34,160 nt of DNA from Candidatus Vogelbacteria bacterium. GTDB taxonomy: Bacteria > Patescibacteriota > Minisyncoccia > Phycocordibacterales > UBA12445. Shown piece by piece: positions 6,877 through 21,313 of this stretch. Where the stretch lies: assembly GCA_016215345.1 (NCBI GenBank), contig JACRKD010000026.1, forward strand, positions 1-34,160, given 5' to 3'. The notes under the pieces are model-generated. The model saw only the letters and a list, made by a program, of their open reading frames with translations. It did no database searches and was not told where the DNA came from. Each line of letters begins with the position of its first letter. The stretch's first letter is position 1. A program made the position numbers and the translations under genes.

Positions 6877-6886
6877 GTTCCCAAGT
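6864..6886. repeat. RAYT-2 left palindrome, contains the folD stop codon
   Basis: ACTTGGAAAC-TAA-GTTCCCAAGT: 10-bp arms with one mismatch around TAA, which is the folD stop codon. The perfect version of this 23-mer lies at the right end (7570-7592). Confidence 0.85.
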
Positions 6887-6894
6887 GCTATAGT
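6885..6894 (+). promoter_or_regulatory. extended -10 promoter of RAYT-2
   Basis: GTGCTATAGT (TGn-TATAGT; -10 at 6889-6894) begins at the edge of the palindrome and ends 6 nt before the ATG at 6901. The arrangement matches RAYT-1 closely (411-420) and again implies a leaderless mRNA. Confidence 0.55.
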
Positions 6895-6900
6895 TTCTGG

Positions 6901-7563
6901 ATGAGGAATTTTTCTTTTGAAGAAGGGGGGTATTATCATGTTTATAATAGAGGTGTTGATAAACGTCAGATCGTTATGGATGATTACGATAGTGGGCGTT
7001 TCGTGCAGGGACTCACGGAGTTTAACGTTGTCGAGCCGATTGGAAGTATTTATGAAAATTCATTTAAAAAGACTCAGGATCAACTTAGGTACTTAGTTCC
7101 CAAGTCTGGTGGGCTTGTGAATATAATTTGTTATTGTTTAAATCCCAATCATTTTCATTTACTACTTCAGCCGATTTCTGAGAGGGGAATAGAAAAATTT
7201 ATGCATAAATTGGGATTGGGATACACAAACTATTTTAATAAAAAGCATAAGAGATCCGGGGCGTTGTTTCAGGGGACTTTTAAGGCAAAACATGTTTTTA
7301 CAGATGGCTATATTCAACACTTAAGCGCTTATATAAATTTAAACAATCTGGTTCATAAAATAGAGGGGGAGCCATCAAAATTAGTTCGCTCAAGCTGGGA
7401 AGAGTACGCAGAAGATAAAAAGTCGATTTGTCGTAAGGATATAATCTTAGATCAATTTGGCGATGCACGAGAATACAAAACATATTGTACTGACGTTTTG
7501 CCTATGTTAATAGAGAATAAAAGTTTAGCAAAGGAACTTCGGGAGTTGGGTTTTGAAGAATAA
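6901..7563 (+). CDS. REP-associated tyrosine transposase (RAYT-2)
   Basis: A 220-aa paralogue of RAYT-1. It has GGYYHVYNRGVDKR at residues 9-22, the HUH motif His84-Phe-His86 in PNHFHLLLQ, then GLGYTNYFNKKHKRSGALFQGTFKAKH and a YINLNN segment. The catalytic Tyr is probably in GYTNYFN. Residues about 62-69 (LRYLVPKS) are encoded by a diverged but full-length copy of the element's own 23-nt palindrome, 16-22 residues before the HUH motif, as in RAYT-1. The ATG follows a -10 box by 6 nt and there is no SD. The gene sits between two copies of the palindrome and two copies of the folD 3' end. RAYT-1 and RAYT-2 share the family blocks but differ strongly in palindrome sequence, so they are separate lineages with separate targets. 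Confidence 0.92.
   Translation: MRNFSFEEGGYYHVYNRGVDKRQIVMDDYDSGRFVQGLTEFNVVEPIGSIYENSFKKTQDQLRYLVPKSGGLVNIICYCLNPNHFHLLLQPISERGIEKFMHKLGLGYTNYFNKKHKRSGALFQGTFKAKHVFTDGYIQHLSAYINLNNLVHKIEGEPSKLVRSSWEEYAEDKKSICRKDIILDQFGDAREYKTYCTDVLPMLIENKSLAKELRELGFEE
7083..7105. repeat. internal copy of the RAYT-2 palindrome inside its own ORF
   Basis: ACTTAGGTAC-TTA-GTTCCCAAGT differs from the perfect right-end palindrome (7570-7592) at 3 of 23 positions; the right arm is identical. It is read in frame as part of the transposase just before the HUH motif. Confidence 0.8.
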
Positions 7564-7569
7564 GTTATT

Positions 7570-7592
7570 ACTTGGGAACTAAGTTCCCAAGT
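7570..7592. repeat. RAYT-2 right palindrome
   Basis: ACTTGGGAAC-TAA-GTTCCCAAGT, perfect 10-bp arms around TAA, 6 nt after the RAYT-2 stop codon. It marks the right end of the element. Confidence 0.88.
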
Positions 7593-7600
7593 AAGGGTGG

Positions 7601-7684
7601 CCGTTTTTATTTTCTGCTGGTGCTGGCTCGATAACCGTAGCCATGCTCTTTAAGAACCTTGTCAGGGTTACTGAACGTACGTAG
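7601..7684 (+). pseudogene. displaced, diverged folD 3' end
   Basis: The frame reads FLFSAGAGSITVAMLFKN followed by LVRVTERT and TAG. Positions 7629-7656 are identical over 28 nt to 6821-6848 in folD; beyond that the two diverge, partly at synonymous sites (AAT-TTG-GTA versus AAC-CTT-GTC, both Asn-Leu-Val). It has no start and cannot be expressed as a protein by itself. It is best explained as the old folD tail cut off by the RAYT-2 insertion, with a new tail supplied upstream. Confidence 0.75.
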
Positions 7685-7701
7685 AATCCGGGACGTAAAA
7701 T

Positions 7702-7739
7702 TTGACGCTAGAAAGTAGTTATGCTATGCTACTTTCTAG
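7702..7739 (+). promoter_or_regulatory. sigma70 promoter with a palindromic operator across the -10
   Basis: TTGACG (7702-7707), 17-nt spacer, TATGCT (7725-7730). A perfect inverted repeat, CTAGAAAGTAG (7708-7718) and CTACTTTCTAG (7729-7739), fills the spacer and covers the -10. That geometry is typical of an operator. The downstream gene encodes a DNA-binding-like protein, so autoregulation is plausible. Confidence 0.7.
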
Positions 7740-7795
7740 GCTGGACACCACAAATACAACACGTTTTGGTTCAAACCTTAAGGAGGTTTGGAGGT

Positions 7796-8314
7796 ATGGG
7801 AAAAATGGTGGAAGATAGGAAGAAGCACACAGATTATGCACGTAGGTGGAGAAGAGAACATCCGGAGGCTGTAAGAGCAATTCAGGACAGGTACGCAGAA
7901 AAACACCCAGAATGCCACCGACAAAGTACCCGTAAATGGAAGAAGGATCATCCGGACTATTTTAGGGCGGAGAGCGCCATAAGGGTCAAAGAAAGGTACT
8001 ATGGCGAGGGTGCCAAGTTTAATCGCAATGACCGTGAGCCGTGGACGAAAGAGGATTTGGATTTCATTTGCGATTCAGAACTTTCTGATGTTGAGCAGGC
8101 AAAGATACTTGGCAGGACCATCCACGCGATCCAGACCAAAAGGACCCTGGAGCGTAGTCGGCGGGCCGGTATCATTCCAAATAAGTCGGCTGCTCATCGG
8201 AAGGGAATGGATTCTGCCCGTGCACCCAAGGAAGGATCGGTTAAGTCAGAAAGGATAGTTACCACTGTCGTCAGCTTTTCGGCCGATCCGTCTCCTCCAT
8301 ATGAAGGATCCTAA
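7796..8314 (+). CDS. putative DNA-binding protein with a Myb/SANT-like HTH
   Basis: A 172-aa basic protein. The ATG at 7796 follows an AAGGAGG site (7780s) at good spacing. Residues 1-60 contain three related repeats of the pattern W-R-R-E-H-P-E / A-E-K-H-P-E / W-K-K-D-H-P-D, each about 14-16 residues. Residues about 78-115 (EPWTKEDLDFICDSELSDVEQAKILGRT split over a Trp-rich helix and HTH turn) look like a Myb/SANT or phage-type HTH domain. The Ser/Pro-rich tail is probably disordered. I do not recognise a named family; HNH-associated and phage regulators share this look. It has its own promoter-operator and terminator, so it is a monocistronic accessory gene. Function is inferred as DNA binding only. 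Confidence 0.65.
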   Translation: MGKMVEDRKKHTDYARRWRREHPEAVRAIQDRYAEKHPECHRQSTRKWKKDHPDYFRAESAIRVKERYYGEGAKFNRNDREPWTKEDLDFICDSELSDVEQAKILGRTIHAIQTKRTLERSRRAGIIPNKSAAHRKGMDSARAPKEGSVKSERIVTTVVSFSADPSPPYEGS

Positions 8315-8337
8315 TCTATTATTGGTTTGAACATTTC

Positions 8338-8370
8338 CCGCCGTCCCACATCGGGCGGCTTTTCTTTTTG
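8338..8370 (+). terminator. rho-independent terminator
   Basis: CCGCC and GGCGG (8338-8342, 8354-8358) enclose a short loop and are followed by a T-rich run (TTTTCTTTTT). It closes the HTH gene. Confidence 0.65.
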
Positions 8371-8397
8371 AATTTGTTCTTTTTGTTTTTTCGCATG

Positions 8398-8421
8398 ACA
8401 CTCATATTAAAATATGAGTGT
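8398..8421. repeat. perfect 11-bp inverted repeat, possible operator
   Basis: ACACTCATATT-AA-AATATGAGTGT: perfect 11-bp arms with a 2-nt centre, in the gap between the HTH gene's terminator and the deaminase fusion gene. It has no T-run, so a terminator is unlikely. It could be an operator for the downstream gene or a mobile-element hairpin. Confidence 0.6.
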
Positions 8422-8565
8422 TGCAATTGATTGTCGAACTCGGGTACATAAGTTTGACAGCAAGATTATAGATGGTAGCCTTTGCTTGGGATTGTCTTCT
8501 ACAATAGCTCGTTGAGATAGAAAATTCTGCCTTATGAGATCTACGCTAGGCAAAGGAGGACCTCC

Positions 8566-9381
8566 ATGTTTTCTATTGCCCAAGGCCTCTTGTCGTTTCC
8601 AGTGAGTTGCGGAAATCTTAGGGATATGTCGGATACACGGCTTGTTGCAATGTTTAGCATTGCCACCGATGCGAGACTTAAGGCCCAAGCCCCATACTCT
8701 AACTTTTTGGTCGGTGCCGCGGTTGAAAGCCATGCTGGTGGCATATACAGAGGATGCAATGTCGAGCGTTGTTCACATACACAAAGCACTCATGCTGAAC
8801 AAAATGCTATCGATACTATGATAACGAACGAGGGTAGCGTGGCAATAAAAAGGCTTGTTTTGGTTGGCGCTCCGTTGGGTATTAAGGTGCCGATTGAGAA
8901 CCATGATTCCGTTCATCATCCGGCAGTTTTGTGCCCTTGCAATCATCAATTAGTTTGGCCATGCGGTCACTGCCGACAGATCATTTGGGAAAACTGTTTC
9001 GGCGATAGTGACTTTGAACTAGAATTTTCTAACTTTATCGAGGGCTGTAACGACGTGATTTCCTTCTCGAAGAATTTTCAAAATAAAGAAGCTAGTGCCC
9101 TAAGGATCGAGTATAAAAACTCTGAAGGTTTTATCGCCAATTACTATCCAGTTTTCTTCGTTAAGAAGGATGATAAGACAGTATATATAGTTGAGACAAA
9201 AGGGAGAGAGGAAGAAGATGACAAACTAAAATTCGAACGATTAAGGCTGTGGTGTGAAGATGTGAATAACAGACAGAATAGGATCGCTTACAAGGCGTTG
9301 TATATAAAACAAGAGGAGTGGGATAAGTATAAGCCTAAAAATTTCGATGAGGCCGTAAAATTATTTGAAAAACAATACTAA
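8566..9381 (+). CDS. cytidine deaminase fused to a type III restriction nuclease-like C-terminal domain
   Basis: A 271-aa two-part protein. Residues about 25-145 are a cytidine deaminase: APYSNFLVGAAV, GCNVE, the zinc motif His76-Ala-Glu78 and Pro132-Cys133-x-x-Cys136. From about residue 147 (SDFELEFSNFIEG...VISFSKNF) the sequence matches the C-terminal part of type III restriction Res subunits, ending with VYIVETKGREEEDDKLKFER and WCEDVN. In that family a YYPDF motif and ETKG form the PD-(D/E)xK site; here the first acidic residue is Val196 (YYPVF), so nuclease activity is doubtful. The start at 8566 is chosen for the SD (AAAGGAGG) just upstream. The SD lies in GGAGG-A-CCTCC, which can fold on itself. 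No methyltransferase gene is nearby. Confidence 0.8.
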   Translation: MFSIAQGLLSFPVSCGNLRDMSDTRLVAMFSIATDARLKAQAPYSNFLVGAAVESHAGGIYRGCNVERCSHTQSTHAEQNAIDTMITNEGSVAIKRLVLVGAPLGIKVPIENHDSVHHPAVLCPCNHQLVWPCGHCRQIIWENCFGDSDFELEFSNFIEGCNDVISFSKNFQNKEASALRIEYKNSEGFIANYYPVFFVKKDDKTVYIVETKGREEEDDKLKFERLRLWCEDVNNRQNRIAYKALYIKQEEWDKYKPKNFDEAVKLFEKQY

Positions 9382-9430
9382 AAAAAGATTTTTTTAACAC
9401 TATTTAAAAACAAATGAATAAATTGAAAAT

Positions 9431-9479
9431 ATCTGTTGAGGATTTTAAAAAGTTTAAAATCCCTTAGTTATCAACAGAT
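9431..9479. repeat. nested double hairpin in a gene-free stretch
   Basis: An outer pair ATCTGTTGA / TCAACAGAT (9431-9439, 9471-9479) encloses an inner pair GGATTTTAAA / TTTAAAATCC (9440-9449, 9453-9462) with loop AAG. Both stems are perfect. It lies 66 nt before the next gene, and could be a structured leader, a protein-binding site or a mobile-element end. Confidence 0.55.
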
Positions 9480-9544
9480 TAAATCTTGCTTGATTTTCCC
9501 TGTTCCGTTACAATACTTGCGTATTATAAATCAGCTTATTTTTT

Positions 9545-10051
9545 ATGAAAAAAGAATATAAACAAGGAGTGGCTCCAGTTGTTGTCGTCGTCGGTGTTCT
9601 GATTGTGCTAGCCGTGCTCTATTTTTTATTTCCGAAAAATAATACCAGTACCACCGGCGGGCCAGTTTTGTATAAAGATGTTTCCACCTCTCCGGATTCT
9701 CTATTGGGTGTCTGGGAATTAAGGGCGGCACAGTTGTACGATACAGACAAGAAACAATGGATTAACTTTGATATTAAAGAGAGGGGTCTGTCATTGGTTT
9801 CACACCGTAGATTTGCAAAAGACGGTGGGTACTGTGAGGGGTCAGTTGTGTCCGGTAAATTTGTTTGTGACGATAGCGGTAGCGATACCTACAAGGTTAT
9901 CGGTGATAAAATAAATATTTCACAGTATGAGGGGTTTATTGAGACGAAGTGGGGGATACAAAACGGCAATCTTGAACTTGATTTGGGGGTCAAGGGCCAA
10001 GATGGCGTTGTTCGCCCGTGGACCAGGGTTACTATGTTTAAGCTCCAATAG
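9545..10051 (+). CDS. membrane-anchored protein of unknown function
   Basis: A 168-aa protein with one N-terminal membrane helix (residues about 8-29, GVAPVVVVVGVLIVLAVLYF) and an extracytoplasmic domain. The domain begins LLGVWELRAAQLYDT and has several beta-strand-like segments (SLVSHRRFAKDG, INISQYEGFIETKWG, LELDLGV), reminiscent of lipocalin-like or other small beta-barrel domains. Two Cys (in GYCEGS and FVCDD) could form a disulfide outside the cell. The N-terminus MKKEYKQG resembles that of type IV pilin-like anchors but has no clear prepilin cleavage site. No SD is present. Family not recognised. Confidence 0.6.
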   Translation: MKKEYKQGVAPVVVVVGVLIVLAVLYFLFPKNNTSTTGGPVLYKDVSTSPDSLLGVWELRAAQLYDTDKKQWINFDIKERGLSLVSHRRFAKDGGYCEGSVVSGKFVCDDSGSDTYKVIGDKINISQYEGFIETKWGIQNGNLELDLGVKGQDGVVRPWTRVTMFKLQ

Positions 10052-10060
10052 GACCTCCGA

Positions 10061-10192
10061 TTATTCCGCCTCTGCTTTTTTCTCTTCAGTCTTAATCCCC
10101 GGGACTTCTTTGTATAAATCTGCTGGTACAAGTGTCTTTTTTTGTTCCTTGGCGTCGAAGAGAGTAATTACGAAGTCGTAGCTTTTACCACG
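10061..10192 (-). pseudogene. C-terminal coding fragment, unknown gene
   Basis: On the minus strand a frame with no start codon reads GKSYDFVITLFDAKEQKKTL, then VPADLYKEVPGIKTEE and a Lys/Ala/Glu tail to TAA. The composition is protein-like and ends in a charged tail as many small bacterial proteins do. A stop lies immediately upstream in frame. It looks like the 3' remnant of a deleted gene, convergent with the gene before it. Family not recognised. Confidence 0.35.
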
Positions 10193-10230
10193 TTATAGCT
10201 ATTAAACGAAAGGAGGGGTTGATTTTGGCC

Positions 10231-10254
10231 ACGCCTAGGAAGGCGGGTTTTTTT
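10231..10254 (+). terminator. rho-independent terminator behind an orphan SD
   Basis: CGCCT-AGGA-AGGCG followed by seven T. Just upstream (10209-10216) is a perfect AAAGGAGG with no supported ORF behind it (a TTG at 10219 is too close). This looks like the regulatory shell of a lost SD-led accessory gene. Confidence 0.5.
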
Positions 10255-10331
10255 AATTTACATTTCTTTAAAACTGGAGTATGTTTTTTATGGAGATTGG
10301 TACGTTTAACCAAGACTAAGGAGCGTGAAGA

Positions 10332-10388
10332 ATGGAGGGGAAAATTGTCATCGGAGTTACCGGTTCCCTCCGGGGGAGTTTTTTGTAA
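10332..10388 (+). pseudogene. truncated P-loop kinase start, CoaE-like
   Basis: An AAGGAG (10317-10322) precedes ATG 10332 by 9 nt. The 18-codon ORF reads MEGKIVIGVTGSLRGSFL. The segment KIVIGVTGSL is the typical beginning of dephospho-CoA kinase (CoaE) and related P-loop kinases, where G-S-G-K-S/T should follow; here the frame runs into the terminator hairpin at 10366-10384 and stops. It is probably a 5' remnant left by deletion. The match is short, so the family call is tentative. Confidence 0.35.
10366..10384 (+). terminator. short GC hairpin with T-run
   Basis: CTCC-GGG-GGAG followed by six T, overlapping the end of the CoaE-like fragment. Confidence 0.45.
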
Positions 10389-10421
10389 TATCGGTAATAA
10401 ATAATACCGGTTTTGTCTAGA

Positions 10422-10449
10422 TTGTCTTTTTATTTTATAGGACTATAAT
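10422..10449 (+). promoter_or_regulatory. promoter of secDF
   Basis: TTGTCT (10422-10427), 16-nt spacer, TATAAT (10444-10449). The ATG of secD is 8 nt behind the -10 box, so the mRNA would be leaderless or have a leader of only one or two nt. Confidence 0.65.
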
Positions 10450-10457
10450 TATTTTCA

Positions 10458-14617: not shown

Positions 14618-14929
14618 TTTTATTAGAGTTTGATCCTAGCTCAGGATGAACGCTGGCGACGTGGATAAGGCATGCAAGTCAAGGGGCTCGCAAGAGCACC
14701 GGCAGACGAGGTAGTAATACGTAGGTACGCACCCCAGAGTCTGGTATAGCTCGTCGAAAGACGGGGTAATCCCAGATGGTTCCGCCGATAAGGCGGATAA
14801 AGGAGCAATTCGCTCTGGGAGCGGCCTGCGGGGTATCAGCTAGTTGGTAAGGTAAAAGCTTACCAAGGCTATGACGCCTAGGGGAGGTGAGAGCCTGACC
14901 CCCACCGATGGTACTGAGACACGGACCAT

Positions 14930-14960
<31 letters not shown>

Positions 14961-15515
14961 CCGCAATGGGCGAAAGCCTGACGGAGCGACGTCGCGTGAT
15001 TGATGAAGTCCCTCTGGGACGTAAAGATCTTTTATAGGGGAGAACGTGGCATTTATGCCACACGATAGTACCTTATGAATAAGGGGTTGCTAAACTCGTG
15101 CCAGCAGCAGCGGTAATACGAGTGCCCCGAGCGTTATCCGGATTTATTGGGCGTAAAGGGTGTGTAGGTGGTTTTGTTAGTCTTTCGTTAAAGCTCTCGG
15201 CTTAACCGGGAAAGTGCGAAAGAAACGGCAAGACTAGAGGGCGCAAGAGGCTTATGGAACTCATGGTGTAGGGGTGAAATCCGTTAATATCATGGGGAAC
15301 ACCGAAGGCGAAGGCAGTAAGCTGGTGCGTTTCTGACACTGAAACACGAAAGCGTGGGTAGCGAATGGGATTAGATACCCCAGTAGTCCACGCCCTAAAC
15401 GATGTTCTCTAGTTTTTCGGAGTATCGACCCTCTGAGAGACAAAGCTAACGCATTAAGAGAACCGCCTGGGTAGTACGGCCGCAAGGCTGAAACTCAAAG
15501 GAATAGACGGGGACT

Positions 15516-15550
<35 letters not shown>

Positions 15551-16059
15551 GCAACCGAGGAACCTCACCAGGGTTTGAAATGCTGTCAAAAATTTCGTGA
15601 AAGCGAAATGTGTTCACAAGACGGTCAGCACAGGTACTGCATGGCCCTCGTCAGTTCGTGGCGTAAGCTGTTCCCTTAAGTGGGGTAACGAACGCAACCC
15701 TCGTCGTGTGTTATATGTGTCACACGAGACTGCCACGTTTATCGTGGAGGAAGCGAGGATGACGCCAAGTCAGCATGACCCTTTGATATCTTGGGCTACA
15801 CGCATCATACAATGGCTGGTACAACGAGTTGCAACACCGAAAGATGAAGCTAACCTCAATAAAGCCAGCCCCAGTTCGGATAGAGGTCTGCAACCCGACC
15901 TCTTGAAGCCGGAATCGCTAGTAATCGCAGGTCAGACATACTGCGGTGAATACGTTCTCAAGTCTTGTACTCACTGCCCGTCAAGTCAGGGGAGCTGGTA
16001 GTACCTGAAGTCCCATTTCGGTGGGGTCAAGGTAAGATCGGTGACAAGGATTAAGTCGT

Positions 16060-16855
16060 CGCGGCATACTGCCGTTGTTGCGACCTTGAAGGAGTAATCC
16101 TTCTCGACGAAAATTGGCTATTTGCTGGAATCCCTGCGTATCTCACGCTACTCGTTTAATGATATACTTCATGCGATGAGTGATAATGTGTTGAGTGAAG
16201 CAGAAAATCAGCAGGGAAGGCTCGTAGAAACACGGGAACCCTCAGAGACTACACGCCAATCTCCGCTAAAAGCTAAGATGACAAGGAATGAAATCCTTGC
16301 CTATTTACAAGGTGCGATGCATGATGCATCCCTTAATAAGGGGACGCGAATACGTTTTACCCAAAAGAATCGTGGCTGGTTGGTAATTCTTCAAGAATTA
16401 CTTGCTAAAATTGGTTCAAAATCTTGGATATACCAAGAGGGTAAACAAAGAAATGTATATGCTCTTGAAACAGTAACTAAGGAATTAAGTTTTACATTTC
16501 AAGCTTCGAATATAAGGGGTTCAAAATGCATGAAAGCTTATATTCGAGGATTCTTCGATGCAGAGGGAGGGATTCCGCATACACGTGACAGATTCTATAT
16601 CCAGTTGGTTCAAAAGAACTGGAAGAAGGTAGAAGAATTGAAGCGAATGTTGGAACATCTTGGTATCGGAAGTGGTAAAATTCATAATCCTAGTAAGAAG
16701 ATTGATCCAAATTATTGGAGACTATTTATTGCATCTGCAGATCATAAAAAGTTTGCAACTGAAATAAATTCGCTTCATCCAGTAAAACGGAAAATCTTCA
16801 AAGAGCGGATGATGATATAGTCCATGCCTTATGGCGACATAAGGGTAAAAACATG
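16060..16855 (+). mobile_element. group I self-splicing intron in 16S rRNA (after position 1498)
   Basis: A 796-nt intron. The 5' splice site is set by P1: exon GTCGT (ending T16059) pairs with internal guide GCGAC (16080-16084), placing the required U-G wobble at the cut. Core elements are a Q-like AATCAGCAGG (about 16207), the R element CAGAGACTACACG (from about 16244) and the S element GATATAGTCC (16814-16823); GACTA and TAGTC form P7. P9 is CCTTAT-GGCGAC-ATAAGG (from about 16826), and the terminal G is G16855. The HEG lies between R and S, that is in the P8 region. Introns and LAGLIDADG ORFs in 16S genes are known for CPR bacteria. Confidence 0.9.
16278..16820 (+). CDS. LAGLIDADG homing endonuclease inside the 16S intron
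   Basis: A 180-aa protein with two LAGLIDADG helices: a degenerate first one, ILAYLQGAMHDAS, near residues 5-17, and a clear second one, YIRGFFDAEGGI, near residue 91. Spacing and length fit a single-chain, two-motif enzyme, which cuts an intron-less 16S allele and so drives intron copying. The frame is open further upstream to 16122, but that part is the catalytic core (Q and R elements), so the ATG at 16278, just after P7, is preferred. The stop TAG is part of the S element. No SD is visible. The Asp/Glu residues expected at the motif ends are present in helix 2 (DAEG) and partly in helix 1 (HDAS). Some such proteins also act as maturases. Confidence 0.88.
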   Translation: MTRNEILAYLQGAMHDASLNKGTRIRFTQKNRGWLVILQELLAKIGSKSWIYQEGKQRNVYALETVTKELSFTFQASNIRGSKCMKAYIRGFFDAEGGIPHTRDRFYIQLVQKNWKKVEELKRMLEHLGIGSGKIHNPSKKIDPNYWRLFIASADHKKFATEINSLHPVKRKIFKERMMI

Positions 16856-17245: not shown

Positions 17246-17318
17246 GCGCGCGTAGCTCAGTTGGTAGAGCAAACGACTGATACTCGTTAGGTCCCTAGTT
17301 CGAATCTAGGCGCGCGCA
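17246..17318 (+). tRNA. tRNA-Ile(GAT)
   Basis: A 73-nt cloverleaf: acceptor GCGCGCG/CGCGCGC, D-arm GCTC-AGTTGGTA-GAGC, anticodon arm AACGA-CTGATAC-TCGTT, variable AGGTC, T-arm CCTAG-TTCGAAT-CTAGG, discriminator A. Loop positions 34-36 read GAT, which decodes AUC/AUU isoleucine. The CCA end is not encoded. It lies behind the 16S terminator, where many bacteria have tRNA-Ile in the 16S-23S spacer, but no 23S follows. Confidence 0.95.
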
Positions 17319-17320
17319 CA

Positions 17321-18506: not shown

Positions 18507-18616
18507 CATTTTCCTAATGTCTTACTATAATCCACGGTCGTGGGAGATAGTAAGACGTTCGCTGTTTTTGTCATGTATGTTATGGCTGGTGATTGTGGTC
18601 TATAATATCTGTATAT

Positions 18617-21313
18617 ATGGACGACAGTTTCTTGGGTAAAAGGTTTACCATTATGGGTATGGACGGGGGCGGACGCGGATTGAAAGATGCGCGCTTTTTG
18701 CTTCTACACGGCGTAGAGGTTATAGGGACGGACTTGAGGAAGGCTGAAGAGTTTCCGGAGGCGGTCGCGCTTGCAAAACAGCATAAAAATCTCCGCTTGG
18801 TCTTTGGGGAACATAGACTTACTGATTTTCAGAATAGAGATTTTATAATTCGCGCGGCGAAAACTCCCATTGATTCACCATATCTCGCAGAAGCTAGAAA
18901 AAATAATATTCCCGTTGTCTCTGATGAGACTTTGTTTTTGACGTATGCGCCGCAAGTTTTAACGGTAGGCGTTACCGGTACGCGAGGGAAGACCACCGTT
19001 ACATACATGATTCATGAAATATTGAAAATTGCTTCTGGCACACAGGTCGGTACTGTGTGTCGTGTGTATTTGGGTGGGAACGTGCAAGATACTGCCATGT
19101 TGCCGTTGTTGGATAAAATTAAAGATGGTGACTATCTTGTTATGGAACTAGACTCTTGGAAACTTCAGAGTTTTGCCGAGAATAAAATAAGTCCGAATAT
19201 TGCAGTTTTTACAACTTTCTATCGAGATCACATGGATTATTATAATGGAGATATGGATAGATACTGGCTAGATAAGTCTGCTATTTTTGTGAATCAGAAA
19301 AAGGGAGACAGGTTAATCGTAAGTTCACAAGTAAAAAACTATCGAAGCCCATGCCTCATCGGCAGACAGGCGATTTCAACGGTCTCTCCCATGGTAGTCG
19401 GCACAGAGTATTTGCCAATAGATTGGAAATTAAAAATTTTGGGTGACCATAATCGTCTCAATGCGGGGCTCGCTCTCGCCATGGCGCGCTCGCTCGATAT
19501 ACCGGACGAGATAAGTAGAAAAGCCCTTGAAAGTTTTAATGGAGTTCCGGGTCGTCTTGAGTATCTGGGTGAGAAAAATGGAGTGAAATATTTTAACGAT
19601 ACGGCCTCGACTTCTCCGGAGGGCACTATCGCCGGCCTTAATGCCTTGAAAGACTATAGAGGTAAGATAATATTGATTGGTGGCGGTTCTGATAAGGGTT
19701 TTGAGTATGGAAAGTATGCGGACGAAGTCAAACAATATGTAAGGTCACTCATTTTATTTAGAGGTTCTGCTTCAGACAAAATATTAAAGATATTGGGAGA
19801 TGATGGGGTTGTTGTTGATAAGAATATTGGTAGTATGTCTGAGGCCTTTAGCTTGGCCCAATCCGTCGCAGGGTCAGGCGACGTAATTCTTCTTTCTCCC
19901 GGCGCTGCCTCTTTCGGAATCTTTAAGAATGAATACGATCGAGGGGCACAGTTTAATAGAAGGTTGAACCTTCTAGGGCATCAGACAGCAAGAAAAATTT
20001 ATTTCGTTGGTATCGGCGGAATTGGGATTTCGGCGATTGCCAGAATGATGTTGCTAGACGGAAAAACGGTTTCCGGAACGGATGCCAGCGAATCTCCGGT
20101 TACCGAGGAACTTGCTAAACTTGGAGCGAAAATAAATATTGAACATAGAGCCGGGAACATAACCGAGGACATTAATCTTGTCGTTTATTCTATCGCCGTA
20201 ACGCCCTCTAATCCGGAGCTTGTTCGCGCGCGCGAGCTTGGCCTTCTCGTTATGAGTTATCCGGAAATTCTCGCCGAAGTTACGAAGAACTATTTTACAG
20301 TTGCGGTTTCCGGGACACACGGAAAAACGACGACAACGGCTATGATTGCGAAAATTCTCATCGATGCCGGTCTCGACCCTACCGTTATTGTCGGCAGTTT
20401 GCTCCATGAACGTAACCCTTCGATGGGTTCGACGAGCTCACCACAAGCTCCTTCAGGGAGAGGCACTAACTTTATCGCCGGAAAGGGGAAGATTTTAGTT
20501 CTTGAGGCGGATGAATATAGAAGAACATTTATGAAGATAACGCCTCGTCTTGTCGTTATAACAAACATAGATGTTGACCATCTCGATTATTATAAAGATC
20601 TCGATGATATTAAATCTGTCTTCCGTAGTTTCGCTTTGAAGCTTGGGTCGGAAGATCATTTGGTTTGTGATATTGGCCAGAAGAATCTTTTTGATGTTTA
20701 TGGGGGGCTAGATTGCAAGGTTTTGAATTATGGGGAGATATGTCGGCCGGATTTAATTGTTCCGGGTGAGCATAATAGAGATAACGCTCGCGCCGCGATC
20801 GCCACAGCCATCGCGCTCGGCGTCAGTGAAGACAATGCTCGGAAAAGTTTGGAGACTTTTTCGGGAACCTGGCGGAGACTTGAGAAGAAGGGGTCGCTTG
20901 TATCGGGTGTGATTATATATGACGACTACGCGCATAACCCGGGCAAGATTAAGGCAGCTATAGCCGGTCTTCGGGAACTTTATCCGGATAAAAAGATAAC
21001 AGTTGTATTTATGCCGCATCTTTTCAGTCGTACAAAAATCTTACTTCATGAACTTGCCGAAAGTTTATCTGGCGCGGATCGAGTATATGTTACAGATATT
21101 TATGCTGCGCGAGAGCTTTCCGATCCAACTATTCACGCGAGAGATTTGGTGGACGCGATAAATGTTAAACAAGGGCTAGGTGAGTATCTGGGGGATTTGA
21201 ACGATTTTGCAGAAAAGATTAAGACGCGTTTGTCAGGTGAAGATGTTCTTGTAACCATGGGGGCGGGGGATATATATAAACTGGGAGAGAAAATTCTAAA
21301 ATTTGACTTGTAG
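18617..21313 (+). CDS. MurD-MurC fusion: two peptidoglycan precursor ligases in one chain
   Basis: An 898-aa protein. Residues 1 to about 455 are a MurD-like ligase (D-Glu addition to UDP-MurNAc-Ala): P-loop GTRGKTTVTY near residue 121, LELDSWKLQ-type segment, TFYRDHMDYY, and the C-terminal NDTASTSPEGT...GGSDKGFEY block. Residues about 461-898 are MurC (L-Ala addition to UDP-MurNAc): N-terminal YFVGIGGIGISAIARMM, P-loop GTHGKTTTT near 565, EADEYRRTF, NIDVDHLDYY and DDYAHNPGKIKAAI. The two catalyse consecutive steps in reverse order of the fusion. The start at 18617 lies 10 nt behind TATAAT (18601-18606), with no SD. A palindromic insertion encodes a Ser/Pro-rich loop in the MurC half (about 20415-20458). 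Confidence 0.92.
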   Translation: MDDSFLGKRFTIMGMDGGGRGLKDARFLLLHGVEVIGTDLRKAEEFPEAVALAKQHKNLRLVFGEHRLTDFQNRDFIIRAAKTPIDSPYLAEARKNNIPVVSDETLFLTYAPQVLTVGVTGTRGKTTVTYMIHEILKIASGTQVGTVCRVYLGGNVQDTAMLPLLDKIKDGDYLVMELDSWKLQSFAENKISPNIAVFTTFYRDHMDYYNGDMDRYWLDKSAIFVNQKKGDRLIVSSQVKNYRSPCLIGRQAISTVSPMVVGTEYLPIDWKLKILGDHNRLNAGLALAMARSLDIPDEISRKALESFNGVPGRLEYLGEKNGVKYFNDTASTSPEGTIAGLNALKDYRGKIILIGGGSDKGFEYGKYADEVKQYVRSLILFRGSASDKILKILGDDGVVVDKNIGSMSEAFSLAQSVAGSGDVILLSPGAASFGIFKNEYDRGAQFNRRLNLLGHQTARKIYFVGIGGIGISAIARMMLLDGKTVSGTDASESPVTEELAKLGAKINIEHRAGNITEDINLVVYSIAVTPSNPELVRARELGLLVMSYPEILAEVTKNYFTVAVSGTHGKTTTTAMIAKILIDAGLDPTVIVGSLLHERNPSMGSTSSPQAPSGRGTNFIAGKGKILVLEADEYRRTFMKITPRLVVITNIDVDHLDYYKDLDDIKSVFRSFALKLGSEDHLVCDIGQKNLFDVYGGLDCKVLNYGEICRPDLIVPGEHNRDNARAAIATAIALGVSEDNARKSLETFSGTWRRLEKKGSLVSGVIIYDDYAHNPGKIKAAIAGLRELYPDKKITVVFMPHLFSRTKILLHELAESLSGADRVYVTDIYAARELSDPTIHARDLVDAINVKQGLGEYLGDLNDFAEKIKTRLSGEDVLVTMGAGDIYKLGEKILKFDL
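20415..20458. repeat. in-frame palindromic insertion within murDC
   Basis: The stretch begins CCCTTCGATGGGTTCGACGA and contains GAGCT-CACCACA-AGCTC and a closing TTCAGGG. It resembles the widespread genomic repeat families built on 'CTTCGAC..GAGCTC..AGCTCC..AGGG'. It encodes MGSTSSPQAPSG, a loop that ordinary MurC does not have at this place, between VGSLL and NFIAGKGK. The frame is kept. Confidence 0.55.

Follow-up and report, generated by a model that had tools for sequence, protein, structure and literature searches.

Tetrameric-type cytidine deaminases (Cdd; PF00383 and NF004064/TIGR01354, here from a Patescibacteria subgroup) and the BPTD_3080 restriction endonuclease, a type III-like Res protein (NF046055), are the systems to which the gene reported here was compared. 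PMC9897663 describes cytidine deaminase as a five-strand core with conserved Pro123 and Phe126, and its active centre as assembled from three subunits, with the conserved Phe126 contributed by another subunit. According to the same paper, replacement of the conserved C-terminal Phe alone increased KM only about twofold. A PF01555 methyltransferase (Mod) gene preceded Res in the two Res loci that were examined, directly in L139 and with one small ORF between them in L046. Enzymes of the PD-(D/E)xK type are expected to lose cleavage when the catalytic Asp is lost. We found no literature on a fusion of deaminase and restriction enzyme in phage defence, nor on BPTD_3080.

The window, which is the whole stretch of 34,160 nucleotides that was analysed, contains one ORF that joins a part of each protein (Table 1). 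Like the deaminases, this ORF has the HAE and PCxxC motifs, but its deaminase part ends after the zinc-cysteine helix and is missing the final two strands of the core as well as the conserved C-terminal Pro/Phe. Its tail retains the ETKG and WCEDVN motifs of the restriction endonuclease, with identity of up to 80%, but it lacks the helicase part, has Val in place of the Asp of YYPDF and has no Mod partner that we could find in the genome. With a probability of about 0.8, we consider it a one-off in-frame chimaera of a truncated salvage Cdd head and a Res C-terminal nuclease tail, made by deletion and now an enzymatically inactive relic.

Table 1. Positions of the chimaeric ORF, its parts and nearby features in the window
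Feature	Position	Strand	Evidence
Y1 / REP-associated tyrosine transposase, in the folD-secD slot	6901..7563	+	Pfam, NCBIfam
Shine-Dalgarno GGAGG, within the near-palindrome GGAGGACCTCC (8555-8565)	8555..8559	+	
Chimaeric ORF, cdd' joined to 'res; 271 aa + stop	8566..9381	+	ORF call, Pfam, NCBIfam
Cytidine deaminase part; homologue of the 194-aa Cdd of relative G001	8602..9003	+	Sequence comparison
Seam codons GGC GAT (Gly146-Asp147)	9001..9006	+	Codon comparison with both parent families
BPTD_3080-type Res C-terminal nuclease domain, last ~124 of ~900 residues	9007..9378	+	NCBIfam, alignments
Codon GTT (V196) replacing the catalytic Asp	9151..9153	+	Alignment with relatives

PF00383 covers residues 29-142 of the fusion (E 1.7e-11), with the zinc motifs at 76-78 (HAE) and 132-136 (PCGHC). 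NF046055 covers residues 144-238 (E 3.4e-10), which correspond to positions 856-947 of the 970 in the profile, and the score is 38.5 bits against a whole-protein cut-off of 800. Since the match is confined to the end of the profile, only the C-terminal end of Res is present. The tail motifs are located at 193-197 (YYPVF), 210-213 (ETKG) and 229-234 (WCEDVN). The fusion ORF was thus confirmed to be real and chimaeric. A preliminary description of this DNA had proposed a deaminase fused to a Res tail, with the seam near residue 147, and our data agree on both points, as the junction was found at residues 146-147.

Residues 13-146 of the fusion are 64% identical to the Cdd of G001, and about 45 C-terminal residues of that protein are missing. 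Conservation was scored in an alignment of 16 Cdd rows, from which L136, L137 and L076 (duplicates) and L110 (distant) were omitted. H76, E78, C133 and C136 are conserved in all 16 rows and are all present in the fusion. Of the columns, 26 are conserved in 15 or all 16 of these rows: 21 of the 22 before the seam are retained exactly, with T74S as the sole exception, and the four past the seam (I, P, F, P) are absent. The fusion scored 70.1 against the equivalog cut-off of 74 for NF004064 and 69.3 against that of 113.65 for TIGR01354.

AlphaFold models were compared next to these alignments. The intact Cdd L075 has strands at 146-150 and 156-160 that are missing from the deaminase half of the fusion. 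The L075 model matched mouse Cdd (2fr5_A) over the whole fold (Z 16.5, 131 residues, rmsd 4.0), while the fusion model matched it with Z 8.6 over 78 residues (rmsd 1.9), in a model range of 22-111 that leaves the second zinc motif outside. The fusion model, for which the folding alignment was built from trimmed fragments, has low confidence at the zinc-cysteine helix (112-146). The VIA structure listings used here re-examine Foldseek matches, and further families may be absent from the list. From these models, the deaminase half is predicted to be unable to complete the five-stranded core and to misfold. The argument for loss of activity rests on the missing strands and not on the C-terminal Phe, because replacing Phe alone only about doubled KM in PMC9897663.

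The tail is 80% identical to the Res of L046, its nearest full-length relative, and about 770 N-terminal Res residues, including the SF2 helicase domain, are missing from the fusion. The preliminary description had also claimed that the first catalytic Asp is lost, and this was substantiated: residue 196 is Val in the fusion and Asp in 70/70 distinct Res tails covering the site (7 of the 77 distinct tail segments do not reach residue 196 and were omitted). The change from YYPDF to YYPVF needs a single base, GTT in the fusion compared to GAT or GAC in relatives. Inspection of the sequence found no acidic residue within five positions of V196. Most of the tail is well predicted, with blocks of pLDDT about 79-92 between residues 181 and 270. 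Its structural matches, all with Z below 8, were TnsA (Z 6.7, 95 residues, rmsd 3.5), VRR_NUC (6.3), Bax1 (6.1) and RecU (6.0), which is suggestive of a PD-(D/E)xK-like fold and consistent with the sequence homology. When the tail alone was searched by sequence against solved structures, all matches were weak and to unrelated proteins (best E 0.039), and a PHROGs search with the fusion gave one weak match (E 0.0039).

The full fusion query was matched by 21 of 297 genomes of the same order. Apart from the window, some of these matches were Res C-termini, which lay mostly in ORFs of about 900 aa and aligned from about query residue 137, and the others were Cdd-like ORFs; the highest identities for the tail were 72-80%. 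A scan of contig collections gave 38 loci and a viral scan gave one, and all 39 were Res or stand-alone Cdd ORFs, some of them broken or ended by contig edges. The nearest named loci of the contig scan belong to the Patescibacteria group, Kaiserbacteria and Yonathbacteria, which, with the small size of the genome, suggests a patescibacterial origin of the window. The stand-alone Cdd ORFs that match the head are mostly 177-233 aa from stop to stop. In G001 (L136:4617-6781), cdd overlaps a PF01048 phosphorylase-superfamily gene, which is followed by a PF02578 Cu-oxidase_4 (laccase-domain) gene. This compact set looks like a putative nucleoside-salvage cassette. The G001 phosphorylase had no match in the fusion's own genome, in a search that had no positive control.

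The preliminary description had suggested a search for the same domain pair in other genomes, and none was found. Among 157 fetched loci (170 less 13 from the own genome), the head was present in 26, the tail in 105 and both in 0. No second genome spanned both domains in overlapping draws from the order (297 genomes), the class (383) and the phylum (379), and no plasmid or phage record covered 80% of the fusion query. The collection scans may omit entries from the same genome as the window or from very close genomes. Among everything searched, the fusion was therefore limited to the present assembly. Several tblastn rows seemed to cover the head as well as the tail: L054 and L060 (query 19-267 or 19-269), L015/L035 (21-268), and L056-L058 and others (from 110). 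A recurrent domain pair was nevertheless rejected: the rows from the contig scan are Res ORFs aligned beyond their end, and neither PCxxC nor HAE occurred in the 160 residues upstream of the tail in any of 101 tail-bearing ORF stretches, some of which are the same gene fetched twice.

The genome that carries the fusion has 704,745 bases in 44 contigs and is 95% complete. At this completeness, no other cdd was found in it, and a model search found no other NF046055 match, hence the rest of Res is absent. PF01555 had 0 matches genome-wide, as the preliminary description's lack of a methyltransferase would have it, while 11 of 14 control genomes were positive; with 95% completeness, a missed gene is possible. 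The fusion is located in a variable slot between folD and secD (6877-10457, ~3.6 kb in the window). This interval is about 0.17 kb in G004, 1.5 kb in G002 and 4.1 kb in G001, and the contents differ from those of the window in both relatives whose interval was read. In the window, the slot contains the Y1 transposase, an ORF without a Pfam match above the cut-off, the chimaera and another ORF without a Pfam match. The ORF beside the transposase (7721-8314, 197 aa) has PHROGs matches that are all weak, among them phrog_11013 of unknown function (E 1.1e-4). The flanks are syntenic with G001 and G002, with SHMT and folD on one side and secD and secF on the other. A DNA comparison found no flank shared with the Res loci downstream of the Res stop.

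Codons 145-148 at the seam are TTC GGC GAT AGT in the window, TTT GGC GAC CAC in Cdd L075 and GTC GGC GAT AGT in Res L046. Since both parent families can carry Gly-Asp (GGC-GAY) at this point, the halves were probably joined at a microhomology of 5-6 nt, a length guessed from relatives of the parents. The tail would derive from the type III-like Res subunit of a Mod-Res operon that was otherwise lost. Deletion or illegitimate recombination may have joined the halves at the short common sequence (GGCGA, Gly-Asp) inside the mobile folD-secD slot, and D196V may have arisen after the nuclease had lost its function. The gene arrangement before the deletion can only be inferred because cdd adjoined Res in 0 of the fetched loci. 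As the deaminase core would be incomplete and the nuclease unable to cleave, the product would have no enzymatic role and would be a relic.

Another possible explanation is an assembly error, in which a collapse or mis-join made cdd and res fragments contiguous. Such an error would fit the lack of a second fusion in any of the searches and the division of the genome into 44 contigs. However, the bases shared at the seam number only about 5-6, which is far short of usual assembly k-mers, and the syntenic flanks on both sides make a mis-join of unrelated contigs unlikely. The join is also in frame, and the private D196V suits a remnant. We therefore regard an assembly error as unlikely.

The head has a GC content of 0.475 and the tail one of 0.355, and the neighbouring genes span a similar range. 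Tail divergence was calculated with 15 of 50 distinct tails, chosen for the QNKEA motif. The pN of the fusion tail against these 15 closest Res was 0.09-0.18, compared to 0.04-0.18 for Res-Res pairs. At 66 invariant Res columns, the fusion has two private changes (D196V and R265K) and single relatives have 0-2. As this amount of change falls inside or close to the spread among Res pairs, the fusion is either young or under continuing constraint. Synonymous differences between the tail and Res are saturated and, thus, selection after the fusion could not be measured. The reading frame is fully open, and no decay is visible beyond the truncation and D196V. Since neither half is otherwise decayed, the relic is probably young.

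The open frame and normal amount of amino-acid change could also be expected of a functional chimaera, in which a nuclease fold made non-cutting by D196V provides a DNA-binding or oligomerising C-terminus for a zinc-binding deaminase head. The head keeps its zinc motif and all but one of its 22 conserved columns, and a nuclease-like fold is confidently predicted for a large part of the tail (pLDDT about 79-92; TnsA Z 6.7). Against this, the head has lost two core strands along with the conserved C-terminal Pro/Phe, no recurrence of the fusion was seen, and the fusion may simply be too young for decay. A functional product therefore seems improbable, somewhat more so than an assembly error. The narrower version, a newborn chimaera whose disarmed nuclease domain is retained for DNA binding or oligomerisation next to a deaminase remnant that binds zinc, is very unlikely. 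A defence effector coupling base modification or nucleotide depletion to DNA cleavage is highly unlikely, as domain labels alone speak for it while no PADLOC family matched up to E 5, no defence genes were identified among the neighbours (folD, the Y1 transposase and secD/secF), the nuclease has lost its Asp and the deaminase its core, and the pair does not recur.

The interpretation in the preliminary description therefore stands in part. Its option of a deletion-made fusion is supported, since each half is a piece of a different gene, no second such fusion was found, the junction lies at common Gly-Asp codons and the genome has no PF01555 match; a dead nuclease remnant and the lack of a methyltransferase are supported likewise. 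Its defence option is left without support, given the absence of a PADLOC match, the non-recurrent domain pair and two enzymes without parts needed for activity. As a relic, the gene is of little importance: of a restriction subunit and a salvage gene, a small genome has retained no more than remnants, both in one slot. Annotation by domains and the mining of genomes for defence systems could, nevertheless, be misled by an open ORF that looks like a plausible fusion. A functional gene would be a natural case of reuse of a restriction-enzyme fragment, with the nuclease domain disarmed by one substitution.

The near-palindrome around the Shine-Dalgarno site, GGAGGACCTCC, matches exactly in place and, with a single mismatch, on the minus strand there as well. 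At a tolerance of at most one mismatch, it had 2 matches against 0.27 expected, and at least 2 were reached in 3 of 100 shuffles. The self-complementary site had been taken as a hint of tight control, which was not borne out: the predicted fold of the surrounding RNA is not better than that of shuffled sequences (z -1.06), and no Rfam family reached its gathering threshold within 8200-9700. Control through a sequestered ribosome site was rejected on these two results.

Two further ORFs in the window are of note. A LAGLIDADG_3 ORF (16122-16820) lies between the 16S rRNA (14618-16104), which it directly follows, and tRNA-Ile (17246-17319), and its place in the rRNA spacer is unusual; 23S rRNA was not found in the window. 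In a 906-aa ORF (18593-21313), the middle and C-terminal domains of Mur ligases each occur twice, along with MurD-like N and Mur_ligase domains, and the ORF is apparently two Mur ligases fused.
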